From Ulota crispa (Eukaryota > Streptophyta > Bryopsida > Orthotrichales > Orthotrichaceae), in NCBI GenBank assembly GCA_963920765.1, contig OY987251.1, positions 932,501 through 996,500 on the forward strand: 64,000 bases of DNA, in the 5' to 3' direction. Below the pieces are notes generated by a model. The model ran no database searches. It was not told the DNA's origin and saw nothing but the letters and a program-made list of their open reading frames with translations. The position numbers and the translations under genes are program-made. Of the stretch, positions 9,762 to 64,000 are shown one piece after another; position 1 is the first letter of the stretch; the number at the start of each line of letters is the position of its first letter.

Positions 9762-10416
9762 TAAGGTAGTACGCTCGAAAACCATTCGCTCATTTTGAAC
9801 CATCCAGTAGTTGGCTTCAGTAATTGGCTGTGAAATGGTGCACTGATGGTTCTTACATTGGCCTCTTACAACTCATTGAATGCATGGAAAAAAGATTTGT
9901 TTTTAATTACAAGAATCAATCATTCTCCTTGCTTTCTCAAATCCCTTCACAACTTGCAAGTGAATTGTTCTTGGAAGATTTAAGGTTAATCCTTGAAGGG
10001 CCTTGGGCTCTAGAGATATGGTACCAAATATGATCTCAACTAATATTCAGAAGTTTGAATCAACTGGAAATTAAGTATCACAAACATACATATTGAAGGG
10101 TAATATGATGGTGAGAGCATATAGTTTTTTGGAAAGTCCTCAAAGTAGCTCAAATACTCTTGTACATATAATTGTACATATGGCCACAAAGGACTTTGGG
10201 ACCATTCAGGGGTTAATAATAGGTACCTATGACACATGCACTTTGAGAATTCATAAGTAACTCAAAAATATTTCAAAAAACATGAAGCGACTTGTGTTAC
10301 ATTCAGCATCTATTTCTCTTCATTTGAAAAATGAACTAAAAATCCTTCCATCCACGGAAGATCATGAAAAAGAGCTATGAGCCCTTAGATGGGCGGTTTT
10401 TGAGCGTACTACCTTA
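9762..10416. mobile_element. TIR element (AGGTAG family) carrying a TTAA element
   Basis: The left end TAAGGTAGTACGCTC is the exact inverse of the right end GAGCGTACTACCTTA. A second copy at 10728-11138 aligns along its length but lacks the 231-bp block at 9986-10216. Without that block the two copies are about 425 and 411 bp. TA borders both ends, which would suit a Tc1/mariner-type target, but TA could equally be part of the inverted repeat. It has no coding capacity; short frames are artefacts. Confidence 0.7.
9986..10216. mobile_element. TTAA element, family G copy 1 (231 bp)
   Basis: It is bounded by TTAA on both sides. The right end reads, inverted, CCCCTGAATGGTCCC, and the left end TCCTTGAAGGGCC. 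It is homologous to 38544-38794. It interrupts the host TIR element; the sister copy of that element at 10728-11138 has a single 4-base site (GTCA, near 10946) where this copy has TTAA on each side of the insert. Confidence 0.82.
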
Positions 10417-10727
10417 CTGTCCCTCCAAGTACTCAATTTGGATTTTGAAATTTGATCCAGTAGACATGGCACTTCGATACTTACAACTTCTAGATCTCTG
10501 GATAATCAGTTATATATTTCATGTGGTGCCAGCGGCAGTGCTCTAACTATTTTGAACGCACGATATAGTATATCAGAATTGAGAAAATTTGAAACTGAAT
10601 ATGTTGTATAGCTCAACATACTGTATGCTCTTTTTCCAAGTATGGTAGACTCTTAGAATGATTTTTTTTATAATACCGAACTGTAGCCAGGTCGGGCCCA
10701 ATATAGCTCAACTAATCAGTTGAATTA

Positions 10728-11138
10728 TAAGGTAGTGTGCTCATAAAACCGCTCACTCATTGTGAACCGCTTGGTAGCCTGTAGTAAAATGGTGTACTGG
10801 TGGTTTTACAATTGGCCTTTTACAAGTCATTTAATGCATGAATGTAAAGGTGTTTTTAATTGCAAGAGCCGATCATTTCTTTGCTTTCCCAAATCTCTTC
10901 ACAACTTACAAGTGAATGGTTTTTGGAAGGTCTAGGGTCATAAATAGGGAACTATGACACATGCATTTTGAGAATTCATAAGTAATTCAAAAATGTTTCA
11001 AAAATATGAAACAACTTGTGTTACATTTTGCATCTAGTTCTCCTTGTTTGAAAAATGAACTAAAACCTCCCATCCACTAAAAACCATGAAAAAGGTGGAT
11101 GAGCCCTTAGATGGACTATTTATGAACACACTACCTTA
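10728..11138. mobile_element. TIR element (AGGTAG family), uninterrupted copy
   Basis: It starts TAAGGTAGTGTGCTC and ends with the near-inverse GAACACACTACCTTA. It aligns end to end with 9762-10416 apart from the TTAA-bounded insert there, and so acts as the empty-site reference. The copies differ by numerous scattered changes, so they are not recent. Confidence 0.7.
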
Positions 11139-11245
11139 CACAAACATTACATGATCTTTTCTTGAACACTTCATTCTTCTATAAGAAAACAAGATTAATT
11201 AAACAAAATGTGAACTTGTCAAGATTTGCTTTTAATATATAATCC

Positions 11246-11885
11246 TTAACCCCTAAATGCTTGAGGCCTTTTTGGGCTTTTAGGAATTTGCTTCAAATTG
11301 AACAAAAAGGCAACATATTAATAAGCTGTATCAAGTTCTTTTGAATTGTAACCGTACAAATTCAAACTAGATATGTTAAAGGTCACACAAGAAAAGAAAA
11401 GAAAACAATATCACTAATGGATTAAAAATTATAATGTTTGATTATGAGGGTGTTAAAACTACAAAAATGACTTGAAGCCTTTGAATCCTCTTTTCACATG
11501 TTGGATCTAAAAAAATGACCATCAAAAAAGTATAAGGTCAAAGGAAATAACATACATAACCCCAATCACTTTATAGCTTTTCAAAATCTTTTCTACAATT
11601 TTTTCAAATGAATTTTTTATGTAAAATTTTCTCCAAGATCTAGTGTAATTGAGGCTCATTTCCAAGAACTCTCAGCATTAGAAAAAGTCAAGACCTTTGC
11701 ACAAAAGCTTGAATAAAAAACTCATAATTGATCATTTTGAGAATCAAATTGTTGATCCTAAAATTAAACTTCACAAAGAATAAATCCAAAATGTAAACTA
11801 CTAAAAATAGTACTTCGGCTAAATTTATTGAACTTTAGAGTACTGCAAACACCAAATTTTGGTGCCGCCGACATTTAGGGGTTAA
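11246..11885. mobile_element. TTAA element, family A copy 1 (640 bp)
   Basis: TTAA precedes CCCCTAAATG at the left and follows CATTTAGGGG at the right, a perfect 10-bp inverted terminus. The interior is AT-rich, without a coding frame, and closely resembles 48976-49616 and 55288-55939; it is more distantly related to family B at 13606. Confidence 0.85.
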
Positions 11886-13008: not shown

Positions 13009-13014
13009 ATAATG

Positions 13015-13605: not shown

Positions 13606-14255
13606 TTAACCCCAAAAGGATCTTGGAATTTCCTAAGCTTCTAAGAATTTGCTCTAATTTGAACTAAAAGCCAACATTTTGATGAGTTCTATCAATTCTT
13701 TTGGAATTGTAACCGTATAAAATCAAATTAGACATGTTAAAGATCACAGTACAAAAGAAAACCCCATAATTTCTCTTATGGATTGAAAGATTATAATGTT
13801 TGATCATGAAGGTGTTAAAACTGTGAAAGTGATTTTAAGTCTTTCAATCTTCTTATCACCTGTCAAAAAAAAAAAATTGGTCACCAAAAAAATATGAGGT
13901 TAAAAGGCTTAACATGCATAACCCCAATCAAATAATGACTTCTCAAAATCTATTCTACAATTTTTTAAAATGAATTTCTAATGTGATTTTTCTCAAAGAT
14001 CTAGTGTATTTGAGGCTCATTCCCAAGAGCCCTCAACACTACATAAAGTCAAGATTGCTATGGACACCCATGCACTAAATCTTGAATAGAAAAATCATAA
14101 TCATTCATTTGAAAAATTAGATTGTTGAAGCTAAAACTAACTTTTTAAAAAAATAAAAAATGTGAACTACTAAAAATAGTAATTTGGTAAGGTTTTATTT
14201 AACTTCAAAAATTGGTTGAGGACGCATTTTGTCCTCAAGGTCATTTTGGGGTTAA
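13606..14255. mobile_element. TTAA element, family B copy 1 (650 bp)
   Basis: TTAA borders CCCCAAAAGGATC at the left and, at the right, the inverse of CCCCAAAATGACC. Both ends carry CCCCAAAA where family A has CCCCTAAA. The interior aligns with the element starting at 63345 and more distantly with family A. No coding frame is present. Confidence 0.85.
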
Positions 14256-14356
14256 CCCTTGATGGTTACAAATACTCTCCAAAAAAGAATGCTAATATTA
14301 TTTGTTAACTATAACGTGAAGGATTGCTTTGGAGTTGTAAACGTTAATCCCTAAGG

Positions 14357-14703
14357 GGCAGTTCACACTAATTATTCCACATCCCAGTAAAATTTGAGAA
14401 TCTAAGATTGGTGTAGAGCCAAAAGTTGGGACTTGGAACTTCACACTACATCCCACGTCCAAGTCCATTGTATTTTGCTTACATGGTAGCACCTTTTGGA
14501 AGTTTGGCCCCAAGGAAGGTGGGACTTCACTCAAAAATTAAGGTGACCATTTTACTAGACCCAACATTTAGCCTAAGTTTTGCCAACTTTTTGCATAAAA
14601 TATTCATGACACATCTTTGCCTTTAATAACCCATCAAAGTTTAGATCTCATGTTGAGGTGAAATTTGCAAAGATGGGATGTGGGACATAGTGTGAACAAC
14701 CCC
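14357..14703. mobile_element. GGGG-ended MITE, possibly PIF/Harbinger type (347 bp)
   Basis: The left terminus GGGGCAGTTCACACTA is the inverse of the right terminus TAGTGTGAACAACCCC apart from small differences, and the repeat continues into CACATCCC / GGGATGTG. TAA precedes it and AAA follows, near the 3-bp TAA duplication of PIF/Harbinger MITEs. A related 121-bp element with a clean TAA duplication lies at 47417. Confidence 0.6.
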
Positions 14704-16366
14704 AAAGAATATTTGGGAGGATGAAGCACGCACTTATATAGCTTTTGAGGCAAAATCAATTATGGCCTACCAATTATGCCTTAGGAATATTCCAAATATA
14801 AGATTTTTTATTTTTGTAGGTTAATTACTTCTCTCTTTATTTGAATTAATTCACAAGCTTGCATACAAACCATGAACCACCCAGTGATCAAATTAGTCAC
14901 ATATTTGAAGAATAAACAAAAATTGCTTTCAATGCATACTTGAATGTACTTCATTCAGTTCATAAAACTCCTATGGTAAGCATCTGAAGTCATTCATCAT
15001 CCTCATTATGGAGGCTAGCACTCTTGGTAGTCAAATTCCAAATCTCATGCTAACATTTTTGTGATAGTATTTGTATGACACAATTAGTTAGGTGTGTATT
15101 TAAACTTCAAAATATATTTTGAAACTCAAGTTTAGATTTAACTTACCCATATTATAATATCATAGATATATGAATACAAAACTCGAAACTCAAAATTTAT
15201 CCTAAAGCTGATTGCAATCCAAAACTTGGTAATTTTGGAGTGATTTTTTTTGAAATAGATATTGAATGCGATGATCTCATTGTAGTGGTTTTCTAAAATT
15301 CATTTGTTACTTTTGTCTAAAATTCCATCTTTTCAAGGAAATTTTGAATCAAAGACCAACTTAGTAGAAGAATGATAGATATCTATTTTCATACTCTCTT
15401 GAAGTACATTTTCCGTTCTAAAATTGGAATTTCATCAAAGAGCATTAATTAATTGATTGGGCTGAAGTACGAGGTTTCAACAAACCTAACTAAGGTGAAG
15501 GCACCCCACGATAAAAACATTCCACCAGGATCATTATTTGTACAAAGAACACCATACACAAGTATTTTTCTTAAATGTGTTTTCAAAATAACAATAAATT
15601 ATAGACAATTGAGGTGATGCCACGTAGAAAATTACAAGAGATTTGAGCTTAAGAAGGGCCCTTCCCAAAATCATGGAAATTTTGGGAATACTTCCACATG
15701 GGCAGGCCAGCCTGGTCTTGTCAGACGATATGATTTGAAAAAAAACAATGTTTTGGTACAGCCCAGGAACCTGGGCACATGCTTGAACTTTTCTGAGTCT
15801 TGCAAAGATTAGTTTCTAGTTTCCTATCAGAGTTTTTTTCAGTGTAAGGTAGAAACACTCTTGGGCGTTGCTTCCATATACGCGTGGGCTACTTTTGAAC
15901 TCATACTCGTCAATGAAAGTTGCTTATTCCACAGTGATCAGAAAATGACGGTTCAAGGGTACTTTACATGGCTAATTCAAGGCACATTTTGCTTGGAACC
16001 AGGGTCCATGGTAACGATGTATTACTGCCCATAACTACGGGAAGGGCTGGTTCAATAAGTAATTCTTGGTTCAATGCTTGGTGGCTATGGGGGTAATTAT
16101 TCTGCTTAAATGTGCAATCATCAGCGGCGGCATTGTGAATTTTGAAAAGATATGGAGCCCATGGATGTATTTCTTGGTGAACTCCATATCATTATGAGGT
16201 CGCTGGCACGACGGTTTAAAGTGCGTTTGTAATTGATTTAACATTAATGAACAGACAAGTTCAGATACAGCTATTTCCATCAGTCTTTGCTCAGAAAAAT
16301 TATGCAATAACTTCGGCACCAGTTGGTTGGAGTCGCAAATCTAGAAGATAGAATTAGACAAGTGCA
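14704..16366. other. AT-rich intergenic DNA
   Basis: No gene, RNA or element termini are recognised across this stretch. GC content rises in the last 500 bp toward the island that follows. Confidence 0.5.
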
Positions 16367-16534
16367 ATGGCAGATGAGGAGTATCATGGCAGTAAGAGTG
16401 TAGAGAATGCTTGGGCCCCTGAGCTACGACCATATGGACCTCTTCCTAGTTTTGGTAACTTGTATGACGAGCAAAGTCAACTTCATGAGAGAAATCGTGC
16501 TGATCTCTTGCTTCCCGAAAGTGCCGAGAGCTGA
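16367..16534 (+). CDS. Small open frame, 55 residues, unrecognised
   Basis: ATG at 16367 opens a 55-residue frame starting MADEEYHGSKSVENAWAPEL and rich in Glu, Leu and Ser. The composition is protein-like and it lies at the edge of the GC-rich island before the pogo-type transposase relic. I recognise no family. It could be the first exon of a degraded gene, part of the transposon, or chance. Confidence 0.3.
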   Translation: MADEEYHGSKSVENAWAPELRPYGPLPSFGNLYDEQSQLHERNRADLLLPESAES

Positions 16535-17213
16535 ACGACAATCTGCTTTTTGACAGAGTGGTGGACACAGGTGGCAAGGATTAAATCACCCAGTTCCAGT
16601 TGAAGGCAGTCACGATCGCTCCTCAGCAATGCAGCCCGGTGATCAGCGAGGTTCGAGGACACTCATCGGCGATGGAGTGCAGCGTTGACATGCCGTCAAC
16701 AACTCCAGCCAAATCCAGAGAATCGTAACTGACGACGGAGCAGGTTGCTACTAGCCCGCTAACATCGACCGCAACCATGCATCAATGCCGCTTGGCTGAG
16801 CAGGAATCAATCGCCGTTGTCCAGACGAGAACACGCACAAGGAATTCCGAAGATCGATTGCTGGCGGAGGACGGCACTGGTCAACTGATGTCACCGACGG
16901 ATCGATCGGCAGTGAGCGAGCAGCTTTCCGGCAGTCGGCCGCATTTGGTCTGCGAGAAGACGGGTATGTGGGGGAGGAAAGTAGTGAGATGCGAAGGCTG
17001 CCAGTTGACAGCGAGCGCGGCCAAGCAAGAAGGCGGCCCGACGACGATGTACCAGATTAACAACGCATGTGGTTCAGCAAGTTTACCGCCGATGAAAACC
17101 TGCTTCGGAGGCCAGTTCTGGACGGAAGCGGGCAAGCTTGTCCAAGAAGCTGACCAGCAAATACAGAGAACGGTAGGTGAACATCGCAAGTAACGGTCAC
17201 CTCTGCGGCCGGA
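16535..17213. other. GC-rich 5' part of the transposon island
   Basis: Both strands show open frames of about 140 residues (16777-17193 on plus, 16881-17327 on minus) because stop codons are rare at this GC content. Neither has a recognisable domain. The stretch probably belongs to the 5' part of the pogo-type element, but I could not find its terminal inverted repeat. Confidence 0.4.
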
Positions 17214-18890
17214 GTGAGAAGCATACTTAGACGCAGAAGCAAGCGGAAGATAACTGAAACCTGGAGTGACAAGCAACTTGCAGATGAATTGAGGCAGTGG
17301 ACGCAGGTGCGAGTGTGGCAGTTGCAAATAGACACTTCGGAATTCCGACCTCCTAGCTCCGAGATTATTTTCACGGAAGAACTATTTAGAGAAATAAGGT
17401 GCGTCAAGAAATTCTCACTGTTGAAGAAGAATCCCAGCTCATTGCATGGATGCTATCTATGCAGGACCATGCACACCGAATTTCAGTACCAGGGCTAATA
17501 AGGAAGGTAGCAGAAATTACACAAGAGAGATGGTCGCCCTTCAAGGACGGCATCCATGGGCGAGGATGGTAAAGGTGGTTCATTAGAAAACATCCGGAGC
17601 TCACGTTCAGAACTGCGCAAGGGTTAGATGAAGGAGGTGCAATGGGACTTAATACCACCAGCGTGACATCTCTGTATACAACCTTGAAGAAGGCTTATGA
17701 TCAATATGGCTGCCACCCATCTCAGATCTGGAATGCAGATGAATCTACAGCTCAAGCAGGGAGTAGCGGAGGTCTAAGTCTGGCGTTTGCAAGGAAAGGC
17801 ACCAGATCAGTTCATGCAACAAAACCAAAGAACGGTGAGCACTTGACAGTTCTGTCATGCGTGAATGCGCCCGGAGACCACGTTCCAAATTTTAACATTT
17901 TCAAAGGTAAGCGCAAGCAGAGGAACTATATTGCAAAGTTTGAATCCCAATCTATTATGGGAAGGGCTTTGCAACTACAGGAATCTGGCCCTTGAATTTT
18001 GAAGCCATGGACGCCTACATGGCACCCAGCGCTTGTTATGTTCAGAATTTTGGAGAAGAGGCAGTCAATGTCGAGGAAGTGGGTGCAGATGTGGACGACG
18101 ACAACGACGGCGATGAGATTGAAGAAAACCTGCCGATACAGCAACCCTCCCTGCTGCAACAGCTCCCAATATGCAGGAACTCCACTGGCTGGAAGAGCAC
18201 AACGTCCACGGCACAAGTGGCACCCCTGAAGCTATCGATGTCCACGATGCTGCTCTCCTTAACATTGACCACCGCCTGTAAGCTAGCTGCGCCGCCCCCG
18301 TGCCGTTGGTTCCTGCATAGCAGATAGGAGACGTCAATTTTGTGTCCGACACTCCAACCTTAGCAGCGAGACAATATTATGTGCATTCTGAGGCGGAGTC
18401 TACTCGCTCTAAAGAGGCCCCGGACTCTTCAGGGGAGGAGGGCTAGGAGGTCGTCGTGCTTCAGAACTTGTTTCCACTACCACAGGTCCAACGTCCACCA
18501 CGGAGACAACGACGACCTGGTGCAGGGCCGTTAATTGACCAGTCTGTGTCAATTCTCATGACATCAGAGGAATTTATTTCAACGATGACTGGAAAAGCAG
18601 TCAGGAAAGAAGAGGTAGCACGGGAGCGGGAGGAACGACGAGTGCAAGCTGTGCAGAAAAAAGCACAGAAGGAGCAAGAGAAGGCACGGAAGAAAGCTGA
18701 ACAGCTTGTTCGCCGAATCCAATCACAGCAGAAGAAGGCTGATAAAGAACGGGAGAAACTTAGAAAGGCAAGCGAGAGAGGTGAACCGCGTTCGAGAGCT
18801 AAAGGCAGGCGTCGACGTAGCGGAGCGGGAGGAGACTTCCACGAAACTTACGACTTCGAGCTTGACGGAGGATTCCAAGGGACAACGTAA
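17214..18890 (+). pseudogene. Decayed pogo/CENP-B-type DDE transposase
   Basis: An N-terminal piece (KITETWSDKQLADEL, about 17241) resembles the psq-type DNA-binding domain. In another frame LTVEEESQLIAWML through RWFIRKHPELTFRT (17417-17610) matches the CENPB-type helix-turn-helix. The DDE_1 nuclease core begins at IWNADES with its first catalytic Asp at 17738-17740 and continues HLTVLSCVNAPGDHVPNFNI and FKGKRKQRNYI (17850-17940). After 17994 the rest of the core, with the other two catalytic acids, is missing; the sequence resumes with an acidic stretch and an ILMTSEEF motif leading to a Lys/Glu-rich coiled coil (18550-18790), typical of this family's C-terminus. There is an in-frame TAA at 17570 and at least one frame change. 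It cannot make an active enzyme. GC content is far above the flanks. Confidence 0.82.
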
Positions 18891-19836
18891 CCCTCGCTCT
18901 TTTCCAACGCGTCGACCTGCTATTCCAAGCTCAACAACACGATGCAATCTGGCAGTCTCCTAATTCAGGCTCCATGCGTGTTTTGCTTCGATGCTAATTC
19001 AAGCTGCAGGCGCGCTGTACCCAGACAAACGGCTCTCTCGTCCTCGAAGGCGCGCAGTGTCTGGTGCAATAGCTACTTTAACGGGGACATCTGGTTCACT
19101 GACAGGAGTCACCCACTCTGATGCTTGGTCGTGGCGACCCATCCCACGGATGTCAAGCGCTGGCTGGTGCTAAGAGATGCCCGAAATAGTGGTTTCACAT
19201 GCGTCCAGCAATGATGCCAGGTATCCAAGGCATTTGAGATCGATCCCTGTAGCAACGACCTCTTCTGTCCAGGAACTCGGCCCTAGGATTCTACATTTTG
19301 TCTTCTGAGCATCATAGATTGGTATTCAGGAACCCTTAAGCTTGGTATCTTGTATATTTCTACACGGATCTATGAACCACGTGCCTCTATTCTAGTAACT
19401 ATTCCATGTGGTAATGTGTGAACTGAAAGTGGTAAGAGTATATACCACTCACTTTTTCATCTCACTCTATCAACGTGCATGGGTTTTTCACGATTTTGTA
19501 CTTTGAAAATTATGCACAGTCACACTAGCAATTTGTTCACTGAAACCAATATTTTTCATTTCCTATTCCTAACGTAAGAATATTACTTTCAACCTTACTT
19601 AATCAATCTAAATACCCTGAACCCCTTAATTTTGAGCTTATGGGTGCTCCTACCTTAGAGGTAGTATTTCAATTACTCCAAGAGCCTGCTCTAATAAGAG
19701 CTTTTTTTTAGCTTCCGGTTGTATATTATTCATACTCAAGCTTACATAAAACCGATGCTTGAGTAGAAGCTATAGCAAACAAGTTTTTAACAAGTTTTTT
19801 GTACTGAGACCAAGCAGCCACGACTTATTTCAGAAG
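18891..19836. other. 3' part of the GC-rich island, then AT-rich DNA
   Basis: GC-rich sequence continues to about 19250 without a recognisable frame. 19440-19661 is homologous to 5800-6073 and ends in the terminus GCTCCTACCTTAG of the AGGTAG family. No gene is seen. Confidence 0.45.
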
Positions 19837-19838
19837 TA

Positions 19839-20708
19839 CAGTACCAGGCAAGCATGAATTGTCCGGTGTCTTGCTGCAGTTCAAAAAAATTCCTATAATA
19901 CATAACAAAATTGAGACTTTGCTGTTTTGAATCACAAAAATTGACTCTTATGCAATCCCAATTAGACATACCCAATTTTGATTTCAAAAAATCAAAATCC
20001 TATTTTTGGTGAATTATTTTGTATTAAATTCATGATTTTACATGAAAATTGATTGAAGAAAATGGGTGACGAATTTTTTAAATTTGGTTGCATGGGTATG
20101 TTGGAAACATTCATATGCACATTTTCCCTTTGAAAAAGAACCCCCTTAAGTAACAAAATTATGATCGCCAAAGAGTTCAATGTGGGTTGTGGTAAGACCA
20201 CAATTTGTAAAGTAGATATTTCTATTGTTCAAATGGTTTTTGGCTAAGTAAACATATTGTCATGTTCAAAGGTACAAATTTAGTCATAGTGAATGAATCA
20301 AATAACAATTTTTTTTATCATAAATAAATATCTATTTTACAAATTTTGGTCTTACCACACCTCACATTGAACACTTTGACGTTCATAATTTTGTTACTTA
20401 AGGGGGTTCGTTTTAGAAGGGAAAATGTGCATATGGATGTTTCCAACATATCCATGCAACCAAATCTAAAAAAACTCTCACCAATTTTCTTCAATCAATT
20501 TTCATGTAAAATCATGAATTTAATACAAAATAATTCACCGAAAATAGGATTTTGATTTTTGGAATCGAAATTGGGTATGCCTAATTGGGATTGCATAAGA
20601 GTCAATTTCTGTGATTCAAAACAACAAAGTCTCAATTTTGTTATGTATTATAGGAAGTTTTTTTGAACTGCAGCAAGGCATCGGACAATTCATGCTTGCT
20701 TGGTACTG
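19839..20708. mobile_element. Long-TIR foldback element with CAGTACC ends (870 bp)
   Basis: The left arm (19839 to about 20215) and right arm (about 20330-20708) are inverted copies of each other; the ends read CAGTACCA(G/A)GCAAGCATG on both sides. TA flanks both ends (19837-19838 and 20709-20710). CAGT-type ends with TA targets are usual for pogo/Tc1-mariner. The two 69-residue frames, one on each arm, are near-identical mirror images created by the palindrome, not genes. A second element of the same size and related arms lies at 37216-38083. Confidence 0.75.
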
Positions 20709-20831
20709 TATAGTAAAGGCATAATCAAAGCATGATTTTTTCAAAATTGGCTCCAGAAGTGTATTAATCAGCTATAAGCACACAAGTTCACTCATTTTCA
20801 ACAACAAAATTCCATGCATAGGAGCTACAAA

Positions 20832-21721
20832 TTAACCCTTAAATCCTTGGGGCCTTTATTTTGTCAAAAGACACTCAAAGTTGCCATTTCTATTGCAAAG
20901 AGTAAATTTTTTTGAAAATTGGTCTTTTGCATATCTAACCATAGGATCTTGTACTAGACTAGTATAAGAATGTGGAAACAAAAATTCAAAAACTTTGACC
21001 GGACAGATTGCAACCTTGCATGATTAGACTATTTGACTTTGAACTTTTTTAACTTAAAATTTTGCACCACAAAGTTTTTGAGGTTTATTTTTGTATAGTG
21101 GAAAGTTGATTTGGGAATTTGTGGAAAAAAAGCAAAACAAAAAATACTTAATTTTCATTCTTAAAAAAATCAATAGGTAGAAGAAGGTATGAGATTGAAC
21201 AAAAACTTAAATTGTTAATAACCTTGCAATGGAATTGAAACTCTATAATCCCGATGGTGAGATTGTTCTAGCAAGCAAACGTCATCCTCTCTAACATTTT
21301 TTTTTGAGAAATTGTTAAACTTGCATTCAAAAATGAAGTTTATAAGTTAATTTTTCAAGAAGATGCTTAAGGTGCTTGAAAAACAAGATTGTCCATAACT
21401 TTCTCATAACTAGTCCAAATGGAATGGATCAAAGCCTCAAATGTAGACAAAAATATAACCTATGACAAAGAAATTAAAAATTAAAAAATTCAAGTTTTTG
21501 TAAATTGTTTTTGCTGCCCAATTTGCATAAATTTTTGCTTATTTAAGCATAACTTTTGCTTTTGGGCATTGATTGGAATAACAATTATATTCCCCAAAAG
21601 CTAATGTGTTTTCCTATCTTCAAAAAAAGTTTCAAAAATTCAAGAAAATAATTGAGGCTGTAGGTACCTGCCCGAAATCCCATTTGTCCCCCGAGGGGAC
21701 ACTCAGGGATTTAGGGGTTAA
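20832..21721. mobile_element. TTAA element, family C copy 1 (890 bp)
   Basis: TTAA borders CCCTTAAATCCTTGG at the left and the inverse of CCCCTAAATCCCTGAG at the right. A GC-rich subterminal stem around GTCCCCCGAGGGGAC (21686-21702) stands out in the AT-rich interior. It aligns along its length with 51954-52884. No coding frame is seen. Confidence 0.85.
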
Positions 21722-23884: not shown

Positions 23885-26844
23885 CTTTTGGTGATGTTTT
23901 GGAATGAGCAACATGAGTGGCTGTGCCCACCCACAAGAGTTTAGTCACGTGCAACTAAGCTTTCAAATGTAGGCGCAGTCACCTTCATTTAGCTTGATCT
24001 TTATTGTAACATAAAATGAATTTATAGATCACCATATATAAGTATTGTTGAAGTTTTTGTTTTTTCAATTTAGTGTGTTCTTTGTGTCAAAATAATATCA
24101 TTATTGTCTCTGAATTGTAATTTTGCACTATTGATATGTTTCAAAAATTTCTTAGAATGTTTTGCATCATTTCACTAGAATATTGGAGTAGTTTGAGGCC
24201 CCTAGAAATCAATAGTTATGCACAATTAATGTTATAAGTGGAGCCCCTTGATACTATGGATTTTAGTTATTAATGTAGCTAATTCATGTTACATTCAAGA
24301 TTTAAGAGCATTTCAATTATCTAAGCTTACTTAAATATTGGAGTAGTTAGTGGCCGTTAGGAAACATTAGTTATGCACAACTAACATTTTATTGGAGCCC
24401 CTTGGTACTATTGATTTCATAAACTAAAGTAGAAAATACGTGTAACATTCACAGCTTAACAACATTTCTGATTTAATTTGTTATAGAAGGTTGTATATGT
24501 TAGAATGGATTGTTAGTTTTAATATATTTATTTCTATGCATTACTAATATTTTTATTTATTATTTGGTTCAATTTTGCTTGCAATATTTGTATCCATTTT
24601 ATAGGATATTTTTATGCTTTCAAAGTTTGATATTTGTAATAAATGCTATGTGTTTGATTAGCAATTCATATTATATTTCTTTTGTTATTTGTTTTTTTAT
24701 TGGAGATTGCTTAATTTCATTACATTATATTTGGAATGTTAATATGTATGAACATTGTTTGTTGATTTGTTTTTCAAAATGCGAATTTGGAAGAAATGGC
24801 TGATATGCCCTACTGCAATCTAATGAGTTGAGCGTCGTTGGCTACAAATGTTAAGAAATCAAGGAAATAACTTAGTTGATGCCACTTGCAACAATAGCAT
24901 GTGAGATTTTTTGAAATGACACATTGCAACAATCGTCCATAAATCAAACATTAAATGTCATGCTCAGCAACTTGGTTCAAATTTGAAGTGCATGGCCAAA
25001 ATAGCAAAAGAATGCAAAGGTTATTTGGCTCCAACTTATCAAAGAAAAAAAGAAAAAAATGATGATTGCCACAAAGGTTTTGACACATTTTTGGTTTTGC
25101 TAGGATGATATCCAATGTTGTGTTAGAGATTTGAAGCAAAAATGGATTATTGATTGGCCCAAAGTTCCAAATTTGGCATGTTTTTTTAGGTACTAATTTC
25201 ACTTGTGAAGAATCTATATTGTTGCAACATGCGGGTTTTTGTGTGCAAGAGTAGCCTTTACTGTCTCTTTCTTGTCTAGCTAGCTTGTCAACTTGTTTTG
25301 ATTGCATTTAACTCAATGAAATAACATCATCCAATTTAGAACTTTATCCAATCATTTGAAATAGTTGCACTGTATGGCAAATTTCAATATCTTGACCCCA
25401 ATATAAAGAAACAAATGGAAAAGTGCTACAAATATAAGTCATACAGTTTGGAAGTAACACTACTTGTATTGCCTAGATTAGATGCAATTTCTTTCCTTGA
25501 AATGGGAAACGATCTCATAAAAAACGTATATCAAATTAAAGTATGAATATTTTTTGTTAGTACTTGCTTGGATTTTGTGAATATAATTTTTTTTTTCTAT
25601 TGGTGGACTTCAACAATATGTAAGCTGCAAACACCTGTATTATCTATTTTGTTACCTCTACAAGGTGAATACTCAAAAGGAAAAAATCATACATACTTCA
25701 AATTCTTGTTACTTCAAGATGAATACCCTTTTCAATTAAGTAGGATTATCAAGATTAGAAAAAAATTGTGCTTAAATTTACGTCAATACAGATTGGACAT
25801 TAAGTACGTATTATAAGACTTCTTTTGTTCTTTTATAATCTTTCATGGTTAAATTTTTTTAATGCATTCACATGCATCACAAACATGTGTTGCTTGGTTT
25901 TTTTATTTGCTACAATTAGGGATGTAATTAGTGAAATTTTCCTGCACATTATAATAGCTTTGCGTAACTAAATAAATTAACTATTTTACATATTATTGTG
26001 GTCTTGATCTTGGAAGGTGTATGTTTAGATTAATGATTGTGTTACGTAACTAGCTGCTTTTATTAATAGTCATGTATGTTAGTTTTAAAGGTTACTTGAT
26101 GAATGCAAACCAATTTAGCCCATAAACGTTGCAAAGCCATTTTGTGGCTTTTAGATGATTGAAAAGTGCTCTGACAGTGGAATAACATTGTTTTTCATCC
26201 TAGATTCCGTTGGGATATGAGTAATGCAATCTAGAGCATGTACATAGATAGCTTTTGCATGCATAATGTTTAAAAAATGGTCCCACTTGCCAATTGAGTA
26301 GTAAAGATGCACCACTGTGTAGTGTATTTTGAATTTTGATGATCATTTTACCAAAACTCAATATGAGTTATTAAAATGATGTGTTTTTAGTTTGAGCATA
26401 ACTAGCACTTGAAAGTTTACCAAATGCGGTTTCTCCTTGTACTTTAATATTGTGAAAAAATTTAAGTTTTGAAATTTTCATTACTATCACAAGTTGAGTA
26501 CCTATTACCATGGAATAGTTACTTTTTCTAATTTTAGCAATATGGGAAGAAAAATTCCATCATGATGATCTTCATCATGATTCACATCTATGATACAAAA
26601 ATTGGCACAATTGAATACATTTTATAATTACTATGAATTTCTTTAACATTTGCTTCAAAAAATTAAAAAAATTTCATATTTTCACCAAAATTTAAGAACA
26701 TTGTTTATGCATGCAGTATGCACATACCTTCTACTACTAAAATCATAATATTGAATTTGATGTTGATTACATTACAAAAACAACTCCTAGAAGATGATTG
26801 CAATACCACAAAAAATTCATGGTTGTAGGCCCGTCCTTTAGGGG
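23885..26844. other. AT-rich intergenic DNA with a short direct repeat
   Basis: 24182-24280 and 24338-24430 are direct copies (TTGGAGTAGTTTGAGGCC / TTGGAGTAGTTAGTGGCC, both followed by AGTTATGCACAA). The remaining nearly 3 kb has only short AT-driven frames and no recognised element, apart from an isolated TTAA-type terminus at its right end (26830-26848). Confidence 0.5.
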
Positions 26845-26848
26845 TTAA
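26830..26848. mobile_element. Isolated right end of a TTAA element
   Basis: CGTCCTTTAGGGG followed by TTAA matches the right terminus of families F, H and I. I could not find a clear left end; a weak candidate, TTAGCCCATAAACG, lies near 26116. The body is probably degraded. Confidence 0.45.
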
Positions 26849-33695: not shown

Positions 33696-33699
33696 AGAA

Positions 33700-43046: not shown

Positions 43047-43260
43047 CTGCATAAGCAAAACACAATAACACAGGTCAGCAACCTATTCATCCTTCTCATC
43101 CACTCTCCCGTCGAACCCTCGTTTGACTCCCACTGCAGTGCAAAGGTTACGTGAAACAGACACTCATTCATGCTTTCAAACACCCCTCACAAGACATGAG
43201 CGCAGAAGAATTCCTCTTATAGTTGATGCACAGTTCCAGCCCTCATTCATCACCACTAAT

Positions 43261-51743: not shown

Positions 51744-53083
51744 GGGAATTGATATCCGTACCACACACTTTTGACTATTTTACCACACCTACTACATATG
51801 GTTAATACTTATGATATTTTAGTAGGCGTGGATCACAAGTAAACATCATTAATTTGAAGATATAGCTTGACATACAAGTTGCAACTTCAATTTTGTTTTT
51901 CAGTTCCAAAATCTTGCTTATAGTTTTGATTAAAAAATCTCAATATGCTAGGTTTAACCCCTAAATCAACGGGGCCTTTATTTTGTCAAAAGACACTCAA
52001 ACCTGCCATTTCTATTGCAAAGTACAAAAAAGTTTGAAATTTGGTCTTTTTGTATACCTAACCGTAGGATCTTGCACTAGACTTGTATTGGAATGTGTAC
52101 ACAAAAATCTATAAACTTTGACTGCACAGATTGCAAGATATTTGCAATTGAATTGTAAAAAACAACCTTTTTTGCACCTTGCATGACTAGATTATTTGAC
52201 TTTGAGCTTTTTTAACTTAAATTTTTTGCACTACAAAGTTTTGAGGTTTTTCTTTTTATGGTGGGAAATTGAGTTAAGAATCTTTTAAAAAAAACAAAAA
52301 CAAAAAATACCTAGTTTTCATTCTTAAAAAAATCATTAGATGGATGAAGGTCTGAGATTGAACAAAAACTTAAATTGTTAATAACCCTGCAATGGAATTG
52401 AAACGCAATAATCCCAACAGTGAGATTGTTCAAAAAGAAAACTTCACCCTCCTCAACAATTTTTTTTGAAAAAATGTTAAATTTGCATTTAGAAATGAAG
52501 TTTATAAGTTATTTTCTCAAGAAGAAGCTTGAATTGCCCAAAAAACAAGATTGTCCATAACTTTCTCATATCTAGTCCAAATGGAATGAATCAAAGCTTC
52601 CAATGTAAAAAAAACTATAACCTATGAGAAGAAAATAAAATTAAAAAAAAATTCAAGTTTTTGTAATTTTGTTTTGCTGCCCAATCTCCATAATTTTTTG
52701 CTTATCTAGGCATAACTTTTGCTTTTGGGCATGGATTGGAATAAAAATTACATTCCCCAAAAGCTAATGTGTTTTCCTATCTTCTAAAAAAGTTTCAAAA
52801 AATCAAGAAAAAAATTGAGGCTGTAGGTACCTGCCCAAAATCTCATCTGTCCCCCGAGGGGACACTTAGGGATTTAGGGGTTCATTTAGACTTTTTAATC
52901 AATACTATGAGTAAGATTTTGGAATTAAAAACAAAATTGACATTGCAACTTCTATATCAAAGTATATTTTCAAATTAGTGATGTTTTACCCATGATCCAC
53001 ACCCACTAAAATATCATAATATTGGCCATATATAGTAAGTGTGTTAAAATAGTCAAAAAGGTGTGGTACAGATATCAATTCCC
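51744..53083. mobile_element. Mutator-like foldback element holding a TTAA element
   Basis: Ends GGGAATTGATATCCGTACCAC and the inverse of GGGAATTGATATCTGTACC bound the region, with arms of about 210 bp. Flanking 9-mers TTGTTTTTT (51735-51743) and TTATTTTTT (53084-53092) differ once. The centre is occupied by family C copy 2 (51954-52884), so the element itself is about 410 bp, like its relative at 2498-2908. Confidence 0.78.
51954..52884. mobile_element. TTAA element, family C copy 2 (931 bp)
   Basis: TTAA precedes CCCCTAAATCAACGGGG; the right end is GGGATTTAGGGG followed by TTCA, a one-base decay of TTAA. It aligns along its length with 20832-21721, including the subterminal stem GTCCCCCGAGGGGAC. 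It lies in the loop of a Mutator-like foldback. Confidence 0.86.
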
Positions 53084-54080: not shown

Positions 54081-55008
54081 TTAACCCCTAAAATTCTTCC
54101 GTGTTTAGAGACCCAAAATTGTTTCAATATACTAGTCCCCAAAGTAAGGTCAAAATTTTCATTGAAATTTATTTGTTAACAAATTTAATCATAGGATCTT
54201 TTGGTTGTCTTGCACAAGTACATTTTCTCAAAGTTTCAAAATGAATATCCCCACCAATTGCAAGATCAATGTGCCTAAACGTCAAAATGTAGGCTTTTCT
54301 AGTCCTTCCAAAAGGTGAAGTTTGGTTTTTCAAACTTTTTAGAGAAAAACACATATGTTGTTTTTCTTGTGCAATTTTTGGCAATATATTGGAAAATGGG
54401 TTGAAAGCATATATAAAAAAATTTAACCAAAAAAATTTTGGATTCATTTTTACAAAAATTGTAAAGTGAAAGGTATTGATCAATGAAAGATATAACTAAT
54501 ATGCTAATAAGTTTTGGAAGAATTTGAAAATTGTTAATCCCAATGGTGAGAATGCTCTAACAAACAATTAGTAACTTAAGTTTTCATTTTCATTTGAAAA
54601 TTTTCAAAATTGAGAGTGAAAGATAACTTTATATGTTTTTTCTACCCTCTTCCTACATTCATTGCCCGCAAAATAAAACTCCTTTTAACTCTTACCTCAT
54701 TATTTGGAATTGAGTGATTCAATTTTTGTTGAGTAAGTATCAATCTATACATTTCTATAAAATAAAATAAAATAAAATAAAAATTGGAATATATTTTTTG
54801 CTACCCAGTTTGACAATGAAATTGAAAAAAACCTTCTAACTTTGGCATTACTTATTGGAATGACATGAAATAAAGCTTCACATGTAGAGTATGATGAGTA
54901 GCATCCATCCTAAAAATTTCATGAAAAAATTCCAAATTATGAAGTCAATAGAGCCTACCCAAGTTCTCATAAAGCCCAAAGTGGGCTCCTTTGTCCTTTA
55001 GGAGTTAA
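54081..55008. mobile_element. TTAA element, family I (928 bp)
   Basis: TTAA borders CCCCTAAAATTC at the left and the inverse of CTCCTAAAGGAC at the right. A GC-rich subterminal stem GCCCAAAGTGGGC lies near 54974. An AAAAT pentamer run is at 54758-54783. No coding frame is recognised. Confidence 0.8.
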
Positions 55009-55042: not shown

Positions 55043-55291
55043 TTAACCCCTAAGCGCCCAGCCTAAATTAGAGCCATGTTGGATCTCATTGCAAACAATC
55101 TAGCACCACAAGTTCAAAAATAACATCTAGAAGAGTTAGCCGTTGATATTGCATGAGGCTTAGGCTCTGCAAATGTATGAAAAATTTGGTAAGCATTCAT
55201 TGCACAGATCAAAAGATTATAACAATCAAAGTCAACAAATTGTTGAATATGGAAAGGCTAGATTTGGGGCACTAGGGCGCTCAGGGGTTAT
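55043..55291. mobile_element. TTAA element, family J (249 bp)
   Basis: The left end CCCCTAAGCGCCC and inverse right end CCCCTGAGCGCCC match at 12 of 13 bases. The left border is TTAA; the right border is TTAT, shared with the next element. Confidence 0.83.
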
Positions 55292-55939
55292 CCCCTCAAC
55301 GCCTCTGGTATTTTTGAGTATCTTAGAATTTGCTTGAAAGTGAACAAAATGCCGGCATTTTTATTAATCTTATCAATTTTCTCTGAAATGCAACCGTACA
55401 AATTCAAAATAGACATGTTATAGATTGCATAGGAAAAGAAATCACAACAATATCATTTATGGACTGAAAGATTGTAATGTTTGATCATGAGGGTGTTAAA
55501 ACTGCAAAAGTGATTTGAAGTCTTTCAATCCTCTTTTTGCATCTCAAATCTAAAATTGAGGGTACCAAAAAAATATGAGTATGTAAAGTATAGCATGCAT
55601 AACCCCAATCAATTTACAGCTTCTCAAAGTCTATTCTACAAATTTTTTAATTGAGTGTTTAATATGATTTTCTCTCCAAGTTCTAGTGTACTTGAGGCTT
55701 GTTTCCAAGAGCCTTCAACACTAGAAAGTGAAGATCTGCAATGGACACGCTTGCACAAAATCTTGAATAGATAAATTTCTTTCATTCATTTTCAAAATCA
55801 GACTTCTAATACTGAAACAAGACTTCAATAAGAATTTAAAAATAACAATAACCGTTAAAAAAATTTAAAGAAAGGTTGCGCATCTTTGAATAAAATTCAG
55901 AGGGGCATGGTTTGAGCCCCTTGGGCATTGAGGGGTTAA
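55288..55939. mobile_element. TTAA element, family A copy 3 (652 bp)
   Basis: The left end CCCCTCAACGCC and inverse right end CCCCTCAATGCC match at 11 of 12 bases; both carry CTCAA where copy 1 has CTAAA. The left border TTAT is shared with family J; the right border is TTAA. The interior aligns with the other A copies. Confidence 0.84.
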
Positions 55940-57515: not shown

Positions 57516-58439
57516 TTAACTCCTGAAGGATTAAGCAGCTGTGTCTTTTGGCAACATAGCAATTTTGGGGAGGTACGTGTGATTGGAGATTCTCATATTT
57601 TAAGTTGAAATTTTAATAGAAGGTGGAGTCAAGGGAATATCTTTCTTATACACTAAATTTCATGACATTTGGAATCAAAAGTAAATATTTATGGCCTAAT
57701 ATGTTGCTTTTTTTAGGGTAGACAATCTAGGCAAACTTGAAAAAATCATTTTTTTCAAAAACAAAAATTTGGAATGGGTTTCTAGATGTACATGTATGTT
57801 GTATGCTTTGAATCATTCCATTTTGGTTAATGAGATGAAACTGATGAGGAGTTTTTGTTTGCAAACATATATGTATAATCTACTCTAAAATAAACTTTGA
57901 AGTCCTTTATTGTACTCCATTTTCAATATTTTGGAAAAAAAAACCTAAAGTATGTTGATTGTTTATTACAATATTACAACCACTAGTATTGGCATTTTTC
58001 ATTTTCTTACTTAACAATTTAGTGTTTTGAATCATTCTCTACTTCTTTCTACTTACTATTTTTTTCCCATGTGTTGTACAATTCCAAACAATTTGAGAGT
58101 TTTGAAGTATGTATCTAACTTGCCTTGAAGAATGAATCCATAGAGTTATAACTATTTTGAAAACTTTTAACATACAAATGTGAACTTGTGAAGTGCACCT
58201 GCCTAACTTTTTGGAAGGACAAGAAACAACTTTTTGTGAATTCAAACTCAAATATCTAACAATCCATATGGTGAAAATTTCTGAATTTTTTTTCACATCT
58301 TTTGAAACTAGTGTATGACAAAATCTCACGGTTACATGTGTCTAACAATGTTTGTTTTCTAAAATTTGGTACTTGTACTAGAAATGACAATTATGAAGCG
58401 GTTTTGGAAAATTTTTTGTCAAAAACCTTTAGGGGTGAA
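57516..58439. mobile_element. TTAA element, family D copy 2 (924 bp)
   Basis: TTAA precedes CTCCTGAAGG; the right end CCTTTAGGGG is followed by TGAA, a one-base decay of TTAA. The interior aligns with 32721-33651 (ACAACATTACAACCA-like and GAATCATT(C/T)TCTACTTC blocks). The frames at 58039-58511 are not preserved in copy 1. Confidence 0.82.
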
Positions 58440-60461: not shown

Positions 60462-60533
60462 AAGCGCAAGTTGATTGAAGTCACAGTAGCGCTACTGGAA
60501 TCCGAGCGTGGTCCATACTTTGCCAGCGTAGGA

Positions 60534-61613
60534 ATGTTGATCGAGGCGAGGGACTGGCAAAGCGATGCAGTGCGGTCCATCCAGATTGACGCCAGTCCTA
60601 AGAACACCGTGTATGCCGTGAAAAAGGCCATCGAGGGCGGGGAGTTAATCAACGCCAGCCTCCAACGCCTTACTTATGGCGGCCGTCTCCTCCAGGATGA
60701 GCGCGCGCTTGAGGATTATCACATCGACATCAGCTCCACGCTCCAAATGTGGTGGTGCAAATGTATGGCATGCCGCGCCATGGCGGCCGATCAAACATTC
60801 CACACCATGCGCATCTACATCAACACTCCGAGGGACAAGACCATCGCCCTAACGGTTTCCCGCAACGGCACCGTGTTCAGCGTCAAGACCAAGCTGCGCG
60901 ACGACGAAGGCTTGCCTGCCGTACGACAAAGGCTGATTTTCGACGACGAGGAACTCCTCAACGGGCGAACACTTAACGAGTACAACATCGCGAAGGACAG
61001 CGTATTGCGCATGGCGCCCATGGAGCCCGTGGGGCTCATGCCCGTGACGGTGTGCATTGCCATCTTGGACCGCACCGTCACTCTGGAGGTTCGGAAAACG
61101 GACACCATTCGCGACGTGAAGGCGATGCTGCAGCAAATGGAGGGCATTCCGCCGTACCATCAACGGCTCAAGCTCCGCTACGACTATGGCTTCTTCAACC
61201 GCGAATCGAACAACGCCGATTTACTGGACAGCCTCACCCTTGCCGAGTTGAACATAAACCGTGGCGATTCTTTCTTTTTGCTCCGACGCCAAAAGCACCC
61301 CGCGGACTGCCCGTGTTTCGAGTGTTGCGGCGCGTCGTTTCATTTCTTCGTGAAGACAGTGGCGGGGAAATCCATCGTGGTTGATTTGAAAAGCTTTCAC
61401 ACAGTGGAAGCCATTAAGAAGAAGGTGTACGAGAAGGAAGGGATTGCGATTCGTAAGCAGAAGTTGTTGCTCGAGGACGTCGAGCTGGATGACGACAAGT
61501 CGCTGTTTGAGTATCACATCGAGGTAGACTCCATTATCAGATTGGTGGTTGTTAGTGGCGGAAAATCCGGCTTCGATGGCTTCTTCTCCAGAGTCACTGG
61601 CTCAGGTAATTAG
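60534..61613 (+). CDS. Protein with four divergent ubiquitin-like domains
   Basis: From the first in-frame ATG (60534) the 359-residue protein has four beta-grasp ubiquitin-like domains at about 15-73, 90-161, 170-251 and 269-340. The second and fourth are closest to ubiquitin (EGLPAVRQRLIFDDEELLNG and FFVKTVAGKSIVVDL). Short linkers carry Cys clusters: CKCMAC (75-80) and CPCFECC (259-265). The last domain ends LVVVSGG followed by a 16-residue tail, so a diglycine is present but not terminal; the inner domains lack it. The frame is open 21 codons upstream but without an ATG. The gene is GC-rich compared with its surroundings. It may act as a fixed multi-UBL scaffold binding proteasome or ubiquitin-receptor proteins rather than a ubiquitin precursor; that is inference. 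The end TCAGGTAATTAG also resembles a splice donor, so a further exon is possible. Confidence 0.85.
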   Translation: MLIEARDWQSDAVRSIQIDASPKNTVYAVKKAIEGGELINASLQRLTYGGRLLQDERALEDYHIDISSTLQMWWCKCMACRAMAADQTFHTMRIYINTPRDKTIALTVSRNGTVFSVKTKLRDDEGLPAVRQRLIFDDEELLNGRTLNEYNIAKDSVLRMAPMEPVGLMPVTVCIAILDRTVTLEVRKTDTIRDVKAMLQQMEGIPPYHQRLKLRYDYGFFNRESNNADLLDSLTLAELNINRGDSFFLLRRQKHPADCPCFECCGASFHFFVKTVAGKSIVVDLKSFHTVEAIKKKVYEKEGIAIRKQKLLLEDVELDDDKSLFEYHIEVDSIIRLVVVSGGKSGFDGFFSRVTGSGN

Positions 61614-63344
61614 AATAATTCCACTGGAATTAATTATTACGTCGACAAGTGCTCAAGTTTTTGCTGGCAATAGTAGTTTCAATTATGTACCACAGTTAGC
61701 GTTTAGGGCATATGATCATGAGGAGCTCAAGCTTGAATGATCAAAGGGGTCATAGAAAAATCATGCCACAGTTTGGGTTGGACTGCATCTAAAATCTTCC
61801 GGTGAAATGGTAAATTTATTAGTTTAGGATCTGGAATAAAGTGGTCGCGTGCCAAGACTACGATTACCACTGCCAAGGTATCATTCATCCAGATCTCCGT
61901 GTCCATCATCTCTTTACAGTAAGTCTGCTGATAATGTGAGCCTGTTGTCATTGTTGTGTTTGGGCTTGCGAAGGACAATCGGCTCTCTTGCGAATTGCAA
62001 GGCATGCCAACCCGTACCACTTCCCGGCCCCTCAATGACCACGTACATAGGCCGCACATGCCAAACAAGGTTGCTTGAATGTGAAACCTGACCGTGGCAA
62101 GCAGGACTGGGTACAATAGCCTTTGTTGTAAATACATGCACATAAAGTTTTACTTTGAGCTTGGAATTTCGTTGAATCTGAAAGAGAGTCTAATCTATCC
62201 CTACTGTCGCAGCGAAGCAGATTCGTCATCTTTTTTTTGACGAATGATCTTCAAACTACTGTATGTTCTGCGGTTAAATGTATTTCGTGCATTGAAGAGG
62301 ATGCACGGTCAGTCCTTTGCTTGACATTGATGCACTCAATCAGTGCATAATGCTATAAATGTCAGTTGCATCGTCACTAAGTCTGTGCTTCCTCCTTCAC
62401 AAAAGAGAGCCGGGTAGACTGAAGCTCAAGCTTACGTTCTTACTCAGGGGTACTGGGGGCCCAAGGAACGGTGCAAGAGAGCCCTTCAAATCTTAGCAAT
62501 TCGTAACTTGGAAAAGAGACAAAGGAGATCCACTCCGTGTTGCTTCAAGAAGGGATTGCCTACTGTATTTATGTACTGCAATTCAGCTTGAAAGTTTGCC
62601 TTTCAACCGTCACAGCCTGTTACAATTTCCATTTCTAGTAAACAAACAACCTTCTCTAACGTGTAACTGATCAGAATTATATTTGGAGGGTGAGGACGGA
62701 TGCACTGGCAATTGTGAAAAGCAAAGTCCTTTTCATAGATTCGTTAAATAGATAGTTCGGTTAATATAGAATAAGTTACAGTCTATGCACCGGAAACCGA
62801 CACTACGCCGTCTAGAAGCCGCATATCAGCACTAGGGTGGAATTTGCAGGCTGTAATGCTATATATACAGTACAATGACTGGTTTTTAGATTCTTTTGGC
62901 TGGCTCTTTGTTCTCCGGCTCCCTGATGTCTCAAGAACCTTTTAGCGATTTGGCCCACCCCGTGAAAGTTTAAAAGGGTGTCACTTAAAAATGGTGTCAC
63001 TTGTTGATTAAAAGTAACATTTGGAGTAGTTCATCCAATTATGGATTATTTAGCAAATCTGCATTATCCATGGCGATTGGGAAATACTCCAATGTCATGC
63101 ACATCCTCTAGTCAGCCTTCCAGAAGAGTCTTTAGCTTTTTATGGGGCTAAAGTTCGGCATTTCTCATTTTCAACCAGTTTTTCACAGGCATGTACCAAA
63201 TGTTATCTACATTTGTACACGTACAATAATATACTATATAAATATATATTTGAAGATTTCGGTTAGTATTTTTTGCCACTTGGTTTCAAGTTCCAAGTAA
63301 TTATTTGCAATTTCAAGACAACACAAATAAATGCTGATTCTTCT
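61614..63344. other. 3' flank of the multi-UBL gene and intergenic DNA
   Basis: 61740-62230 is moderately GC-rich with frames on both strands (138 residues on minus, 80 on plus) that show no domain. It is probably the 3' untranslated region or degraded DNA. Nothing else is recognised. Confidence 0.4.
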
Positions 63345-64000
63345 AAACCCCAAAATGACCTTGGAAATTGGAAATTTGTAAGCTTTTAGGAATTTGCTCT
63401 AATTTGAACAAAAAACCAATATTTTGATAAGTTGTATTAATTCTTTTTGAATTGTAACCGTATAAAATCAAACTAGACATGTTAGAGAACACGTTAGAAA
63501 GGAAAACACAACAATCTCTTATGGATTGAAAGATTATAATGTTTGGTCATGAGGGTGTTAAAATTGTGAAAGTGATTTGAAGTCTTTCAAGCTTATTTTC
63601 ACATGTCAAATTTGAAAATTTGGTCACCAAAAAAACATGAGGTTAAAGGGCCTAATATGCATAACCCCAATCAAATAATGACTTCTCAAAACCTACTCTA
63701 CAATTTTTTTAAATGAATTTCTAATGTGATTCTTTTTCTCAAAGATCTAGTGTATTTGAGGCTCACTCCCAAGAGCCCTCAACACTACATAAAGTCAAGA
63801 TTGCAATGGACACTCATGCACAAATTTTTGAATAGAAAAATCATAATCAATCATTTGCAAAATTAGATTGTTAACGCTAATACTAAACTTTAAAAAGAAA
63901 ATTTCAAAAATTTAAATCACTCAAAATAACAAATTGGTAAGGTTTTATTTTACTTAAAAAATTAGTCGAGGACACATTCTATCCTCAGGGTCGTTTTGGG
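63345..64000. mobile_element. TTAA element, family B copy 2, cut by the window end
   Basis: TAAA (decayed TTAA) precedes CCCCAAAATGACC, and the window stops at GGTCGTTTTGGG, which in copy 1 (13606-14255) is followed by GTTAA. The interior aligns with copy 1 throughout. Both ends again carry CCCCAAAA. Confidence 0.85.

Follow-up and report, generated by a model that had tools for sequence, protein, structure and literature searches.

The 64,000-base stretch of the Ulota crispa (Bryopsida) genome analyzed here (contig OY987251.1, positions 932,501 to 996,500, without any N; hereafter the window) contains numerous short elements that are bordered by TTAA and start with CCC, which raises the question of what kind of transposons these are and which transposase moved them. 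They appear to be old, non-autonomous cut-and-paste transposons of a plant nuclear genome that resemble miniature inverted-repeat transposable elements (MITEs) and would have been mobilized in trans by a TTAA-specific DDE transposase, most likely of the piggyBac type, an explanation that we favor with moderate confidence.

A group of TTAA-flanked elements with common ends

The existence of the element group is confirmed by the excess of its end motif. The full motif TTAACCCYTAAA was found 15 times on the two strands, where 200 dinucleotide shuffles gave 0.1 on average and never more than 2, and TTAACCC/GGGTTAA occurs 29 times, against 10.0 expected and a maximum of 20 in dinucleotide shuffles of the window. 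A relaxed end pattern yielded 12 left and 10 right matches; for 6 of the left ends, a right end follows 60-1100 bp downstream, an arrangement never encountered in 60 simulated windows. After manual refinement of the coordinates against alignments and sequence, 20 bounded elements were delineated, 19 complete (93-990 bp) and one truncated by the window end, which together occupy 11,542 bases, or 18.03% of the window. There is also an orphan right end at 26848, for which a weight-matrix search of the window found no left partner. These results agree with the initial annotation, which had described about 20 elements with common ends and TTAA borders covering some 18% of the window, and conservation indeed begins at TTAA.

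The conservation of the border columns is partly circular because 26 of the 40 ends were picked by an exact TTAACCC scan; the other 14 were placed via family homology or pairing, and every one of the 8 altered borders falls in this group. When scored with a weight matrix made from these same 40 ends, 25 ends exceed 20.1, the top score of 40 simulated windows, and 15 do not, so that the latter depend on pairing and family homology. The elements and the features directly associated with them are the following (window positions):

9986-10216, plus strand: C1, 231 bp, TTAA on both sides, empty paralogue at 10784-11139
10784-11139, plus strand: element-free paralogue of the C1 site (TCAT for TTAA)
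11246-11885, plus strand: A1, 640 bp
13606-14255, plus strand: A2, 650 bp
20832-21721, plus strand: B1, 890 bp, large family
26826-26848, minus strand: L, orphan right end
32721-33651, minus strand: D1, 931 bp, large family, orientation opposite to B
33648-33688, plus strand: E3, fragment, right TTAA of D1 in common
34939-35031, plus strand: E1, 93 bp
35572-35883, resuming at 36840-36867, no strand: array of TTTAATATCACACCCTC units, each about 21 bp, in which F is inserted
35884-36839, plus strand: F, 956 bp, large family, interrupts the array
38544-38794, plus strand: C2, 251 bp, right border TAAA
45635-45859, plus strand: G1, 225 bp, left border AGAA, partly palindromic
47569-47936, plus strand: G2, 368 bp with a 105-bp TA-flanked MITE inside it
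47731-47835, no strand: MITE nested in G2, 105 bp, TA duplication, CARTRGTGCCTC ends, empty site in G1 and G3
47933-48922, minus strand: H, 990 bp, large family, TTAA at 47933-47936 common with G2
48976-49616, plus strand: A3, 641 bp, left border CTAA
50102-50347, minus strand: G3, 246 bp
51954-52884, plus strand: B2, 931 bp, large family, right border TTCA, within the hairpin element 51744-53083
54081-55008, plus strand: J, 928 bp, large family
55043-55291, plus strand: I, 249 bp, border 55288-55291 (TTAT) common with A4
55288-55939, plus strand: A4, 652 bp
57516-58439, minus strand: D2, 924 bp, large family, right border TGAA
58501-58597, plus strand: E2, 97 bp
63344-64000, plus strand: A5, truncated by the window end, left border TAAA

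Borders, duplication and occupied targets

Over the 40 ends, the TTAA columns carry 1.55-1.83 bits of information, as do the first three C columns, and each of the 8 columns outside TTAA carries 0.00-0.22 bits. Inward from TTAA, the consensus reads CCC(C/T)TAAA-x-G-x-C-x-x-x-G; the inverted ends are thus short, consisting of CCCYTAAA and about 8-12 further semi-conserved bases. The TTAA duplication typical of piggyBac is intact at both borders in 12 of the 19 complete elements. Base by base, the outer T is kept in 18/20 left and 19/20 right borders, and the A adjoining CCC in 19/20 and 20/20, respectively. Farther out, the two flanks of the same element show a mean identity of 0.23-0.31 (k = 1-10), compared with 0.24-0.28 in mismatched pairs, and among 19 elements no exact outer direct repeat of at least 3 bases was found over the same range. 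Because bases farther out are not repeated across the two sides, TTAA either is the entire duplication or contains it.

Sites without an element point to the same target. The element denoted F lies within an array of about 21-bp units, and its flanks, when joined over one TTAA, rebuild the TTTAATATCACA core of the unit; each of the six units located without the element contains a single TTAA. Hence, the target in this array already contained TTAA before F inserted, and TTAA flanks the element on both sides afterwards. The case of C1 is more diverged: this element interrupts a repeat about 360 bp long, the second copy of which (about 82% identical) lacks it, and the joined flanks align with the empty copy without gaps across the junction, with TCAT in place of TTAA. 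Thus, the TTAA target that had been proposed from the borders is directly visible in the array, and the C1 paralogue agrees with it. In three cases, neighboring elements have one border in common (D1 and the E3 fragment, G2 and H, I and A4). Given the 465 TTAA sites in the window, random choice by 20 elements yields roughly 1.7 shared borders by our arithmetic, so that no additional preference for TTAA next to an element is needed.

Coding content and the search for a transposase

A Pfam scan detected no transposase in 17 of the 20 elements (all but B1, C2 and A5), searched in six frames, or in B1, searched in three. The absence of an autonomous copy, as initially annotated, thus holds for the parts scanned with Pfam, and the classification rests on borders and ends. 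Where scanned, these elements combine the features of MITEs, namely small size, inverted ends, a fixed duplication, several copies and no recognized coding sequence. Weak matches to DUF3755, SNaCT8 and DUF5119 fall below the curated cut-offs and were taken as chance. The large elements are not readily interpreted as decayed coding copies either: in a majority consensus built from the seven, no frame exceeds 66 aa. As expected for a plant element, neither IMG/VR nor the GTDB genome contigs contained an exact match to an extended end pattern.

A broken transposase remnant is present at 16729-18963, with an HTH_Tnp_Tc5 match at 17423-17611 (E value 0.0018) that is below the cut-off and crosses a stop. 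Downstream, in the same frame, there is a NADES motif, which we take to be one found in pogo/Tigger-like transposases. No element ends were found for this remnant, and comparison of the open stretch 17573-17995 with PDB gave nothing at E values up to 1. The remnant was rejected as the source of the TTAA-flanked elements, given that no TTAA/CCC end scoring at least 15 occurs between 14,255 and 20,832; likewise, none of the inverted repeats listed for 14300-19830 is of the TTAA/CCC type.

Comparison of the ends with known superfamilies

The ends of piggyBac carry a CC[C/T]T terminal motif (PMC2872659), those of beetle piggyBac are mostly CCCT (PMC12732532), and many bee piggyBac copies start with CAC (PMC10140906). 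In the window, positions 1-3 are C in 37, 37 and 39 of the 40 ends. The comparison set consisted of 14 ends of coral piggyBac transposons and their MITEs, six of them from transposase-encoding elements (PMC2872659); coral MITE family I, equal to AmiPB1, was excluded, and the left end of family IV is the same as that of AmiPB1 over 13 bases. Three pairs match best, at 11 of 13 positions each: AmiPB2 left and the right end of G1, AmiPB2 right and the right end of G2, and coral MITE family III and the right end of A4. For positions 6-13, the mean distance between the 40 ends and the coral ends was reached by 0 of 1000 permutations with all 14 coral ends and by 1 of 1000 with the six from transposase-encoding elements, and the best-match distance to all 14 by 4 of 1000.

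The elements in the window and the coral piggyBac elements with their MITEs (CMITEs; PMC2872659) are alike in the TTAA duplication, the CCC-type ends and the end similarity beyond CCC. The CMITEs additionally form several small non-autonomous families with common interior sequence and tandem neighbors, as observed here; they differ in size (about 100 bp, compared with up to 990 bp in the window), in the plant host of the present elements, and in that no transposase-bearing partner was found here. A further difference is the fourth base, which is mostly C in the window, although coral MITE family III likewise starts with CCCC (PMC2872659). Kolobok transposons also produce a TTAA-specific 4-bp duplication, but their termini follow the rule 5'-RR...YY-3' (PMC9587614), whereas the ends here read 5'-CC...GG-3'; the available comparisons support a placement of these ends nearer to piggyBac than to Kolobok. 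The Stowaway and Tourist MITEs of plants are small, non-coding and inverted-ended as well, with TA or TAA/TTA duplications (PMC10004981) as opposed to TTAA. An angiosperm MITE class named 'PiggyBac', assigned by end and duplication features (PMC10004981), may be a further counterpart.

Several observations weigh against the piggyBac assignment. At the fourth position, 28 of the 40 ends have C, 11 have T and one has G, with strict CC[C/T]T in the minority. The best-match distance to the six transposase-encoding coral ends was reached by 98 of 1000 permutations and is not significant, and all permutation tests involve ends that are related within each set, with no control ends from another superfamily. 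To assign a non-autonomous element, Repbase requires an equal duplication length and no more than one mismatch over positions 1-11 of the aligned ends; the best alignment to the 14 coral ends, a small set, has 2 mismatches over these positions and thus misses by one. A transposase between TTAA/CCC ends was not found in the scanned parts, so that membership in piggyBac is unproven. Finally, a 4-bp TTAA duplication and a TA duplication with fixed T/A neighbors are indistinguishable from sequence alone. Because the ends are related, control ends are lacking and the Repbase rule is missed by one base, we speak of 'piggyBac-type ends' and not of 'a piggyBac'. Even so, a piggyBac-like transposase is the best guess, considering the CCC ends, the discrepancy with the Kolobok rule and the similarity to coral ends on most tests.

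Alternative sources of mobility

Elements of the same kind could have been moved by a different TTAA-specific transposase, such as Sola3, an atypical Kolobok or an undescribed superfamily, perhaps confined to plants, which we consider a tenable if rather unlikely explanation. TTAA borders alone do not identify a superfamily, as they are duplicated by Kolobok too; Sola3 also generates TTAA duplications, and the end rule of Repbase is missed in the comparison with coral piggyBac. Kolobok has been reported in a chlorophyte and in red algae (PMC9587614), and Sola-labeled repeats are listed for the C-fern (PMC6890710). This alternative is less attractive in view of the 5'-RR, not CC, ends of Kolobok (PMC9587614) and of the resemblance to coral piggyBac ends, which in most of the tests goes further than CCC. 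A different kind of challenge comes from the fact that T-TA-ACCC...GGGT-TA-A reads identically to TTAA-CCC...GGG-TTAA, so that a Tc1/mariner-like (Stowaway-type) element that duplicates TA, has ends starting with ACCC and strongly prefers TTAA targets would leave the same borders; the window does hold TA-flanked, CAGT-ended elements along with the HTH_Tnp_Tc5 remnant. Nevertheless, such an origin is improbable because the outer T/A are as conserved as the inner TA (18/20 and 19/20; 19/20 and 20/20), and the two TA-flanked elements of the window that were examined start with CAGT or CAAT, not ACCC.

The TAA/TTA duplication of Tourist elements (PMC10004981) is contained in TTAA, which would allow a PIF/Harbinger (Tourist-like) origin with a 3-bp TTA/TAA duplication. 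However, a 3-bp duplication would leave an extra A at one end and let the outer base at the other end vary freely, whereas four bases are kept on both sides in 18-20 of 20 borders, which makes this origin very unlikely. The near invariance of TTAA and its position next to the CCC ends could also be explained if TTAA belonged to the inverted repeat and a longer duplication lay outside, as in elements of the hAT or Mutator type, whose duplications are 8 to 11 bp long and located outside the inverted ends. This version is barely credible: the outer flanks of the same element are scarcely more alike than mismatched ones (0.23-0.31 and 0.24-0.28, respectively) and contain no exact repeat of 3 or more bases in 19 elements, and the array interrupted by F has TTAA within the target itself.

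Under the preferred scenario of piggyBac-type mobilization, a transposase supplied in trans from elsewhere in the genome would bind the ends over roughly 16-20 bp, and the element would be excised at its TTAA border and rejoined into another TTAA. A TTAA adjoining an existing element would be used as a target like any other, which would account for the neighbors with one common border.

Size classes and probable common descent

The complete elements fall into size classes of 93-97 bp (2 elements), 225-251 bp (5), 640-652 bp (4) and 890-990 bp (7), with G2 reaching 368 bp thanks to the nested 105-bp insert. The large elements (B1, B2, D1, D2, F, H and J) produce colinear local alignments, with B1, B2, J and F running one way and D1, D2 and H the opposite way (e.g., B1 1-657 with D1 931-245 reversed, B2 81-929 with J 82-926, and F 1-352 with H 990-645 reversed). 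Among the cross-family pairs of B, D, H and J, 12 of 13 have z-scores of 9.7-19.0 in the matching orientation and the pair H-J has 6.2, with each pair compared to just 15 two-base shuffles. The weakest large member is F, for which the pairs score 12.1, 9.3, 8.7, 7.5, 5.1 and 4.1, and B1-F in the wrong orientation attains 6.8, nearly as high as in the right one. Since pairs presumed to be unrelated or out of register reach 5-7 (e.g., 6.9 for J-A1 reversed, 6.2 for D1-A4, 5.3 for B1-B2 reversed), z-scores below about 7 carry no weight. Global identity between most large elements is 46-56%, which is weak on its own in AT-rich DNA, so that the case for relatedness rests on the local alignments and their consistent order and orientation. 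Taken together, this evidence of moderate strength suggests that the seven large elements share one very old ancestor.

The five elements of about 650 bp (A1 to A5) probably share the left part of that ancestor. A profile of the seven large elements matches A2, A5, A4 and A3 with E values of 0.00038, 0.0016, 0.0093 and 0.38, respectively, at corresponding distances from the end, and A1 by its ends only; in the single control, a reversed window, the best E value was 0.54, and the matches to the A copies are strongly composition-biased. Local matches of A2 and A4 to F are in register (E value about 5e-5), and these matches are not independent given that the A copies are related to each other. 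Element I might possibly descend from the same ancestor, as suggested by a match of about 100 bp to B2 (E value 5.7e-4); this link is weak because out-of-register matches (A5-F and A3-B1, E value about 4e-4) are equally good. The interiors of C, E and G show no link to other families apart from end matches. Thus, the interiors that had been described as ranging from near-identical to unrelated are not unrelated in the case of the seven large elements, which are colinear and form one old family; C, E and G stay unlinked. Because large families that look different are anciently related inside, common descent accounts for part of the sharing of ends. Copies within a family diverge by about 10-34%, which is indicative of an old, probably inactive population, and the copies are probably dead.

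Standing among plant transposons

The piggyBac transposons are a well-documented group in animals. In plants, they are called occasional in the literature, for example in red algae (PMC12732532). At the same time, PiggyBac is named among plant superfamilies (PMC10794571) and, in a review, as one of seven angiosperm MITE superfamilies (PMC10004981), and the C-fern repeat table includes 1,230 PiggyBac-labeled copies (PMC6890710); as of 2008, only five superfamilies were recognized in plants (PMC2528002). The initial annotation had considered the pattern rarely or not described for plants: the rarity is in line with the first of these sources, and the latter part is contradicted by the listings of plants and plant MITEs (PMC10794571, PMC10004981, PMC6890710). 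The novelty is lowered because the review already lists angiosperm PiggyBac MITEs (PMC10004981). For elements with CCCYTAAA ends and TTAA borders in a plant, no description was found in the accessible full-text literature, in which subscription journals are poorly covered.

It is tempting, albeit with considerable doubt, to propose that TTAA-specific transposons, either piggyBac-like or new, formed a large and long-lived population in this plant lineage and may do so to this day; much of this population would derive from one element and be distributed among several size classes. If so, it would account for an appreciable part of the genome, in a kingdom in which piggyBac is called occasional. 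Usually, piggyBac excises without a scar (PMC2872659), and TTAA-specific transposition is valued for this reason; on natural TTAA-specific transposition in plants, little was found in the accessible literature. A coding copy with these ends, if the genome contains one, would represent a plant-derived TTAA transposase. Plant annotation pipelines that look only for the five usual superfamilies could leave 18% of the window unclassified or misfiled.

Host gene and other features of the window

The plant origin stated in the initial annotation is corroborated by a splicing-factor gene:

39521-42884, minus strand: RS2Z-type SR splicing-factor gene, with RRM pieces, two CCHC knuckles and RS tail in separate exons

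The exons, located between about 42.9 and 39.5 kb on the minus strand, encode the start of the RRM, its remainder, the two CCHC knuckles and an RS/SP-rich tail. The combination of two zinc knuckles with an RS tail is that of the RS2Z subfamily, which is regarded as plant-specific. Between the zinc-knuckle and RS-tail exons, there is a weak Ribosomal_L22 match at 40272-40361 (E value 2e-5, 25.2 bits, cut-off 28).

Several features adjoin or contain the TTAA-flanked elements. A 169-aa open frame (45126-45638) ends in a TAA stop whose last base is the start of the left border of G1, so that G1 might supply the 3' untranslated region of this frame. The array broken by F consists of about 21-bp tandem units in an inverted-repeat arrangement (35572-36867). 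Two hairpin elements, 2498-2908 and 51744-53083, have related ends (GGGAATTGATAT..GTACCACAC or similar), and the second one contains B2. A long foldback element at 19837-20710 carries TACAGTACCARGCAAGC ends on both sides and fits a TA duplication with CAGT ends (Tc1/mariner-pogo type).

Elsewhere in the window, there are Copia-type Pfam matches and a 383-aa open frame (60462-61613) with four ubiquitin-family stretches (PF00240, E value 5.2e-54). A 60-bp tandem repeat at 43258-43561 keeps its frame open, with 20-aa units, and a 20-bp tandem repeat at 1686-1917 is rich in GGGCAGCTGCC motifs.

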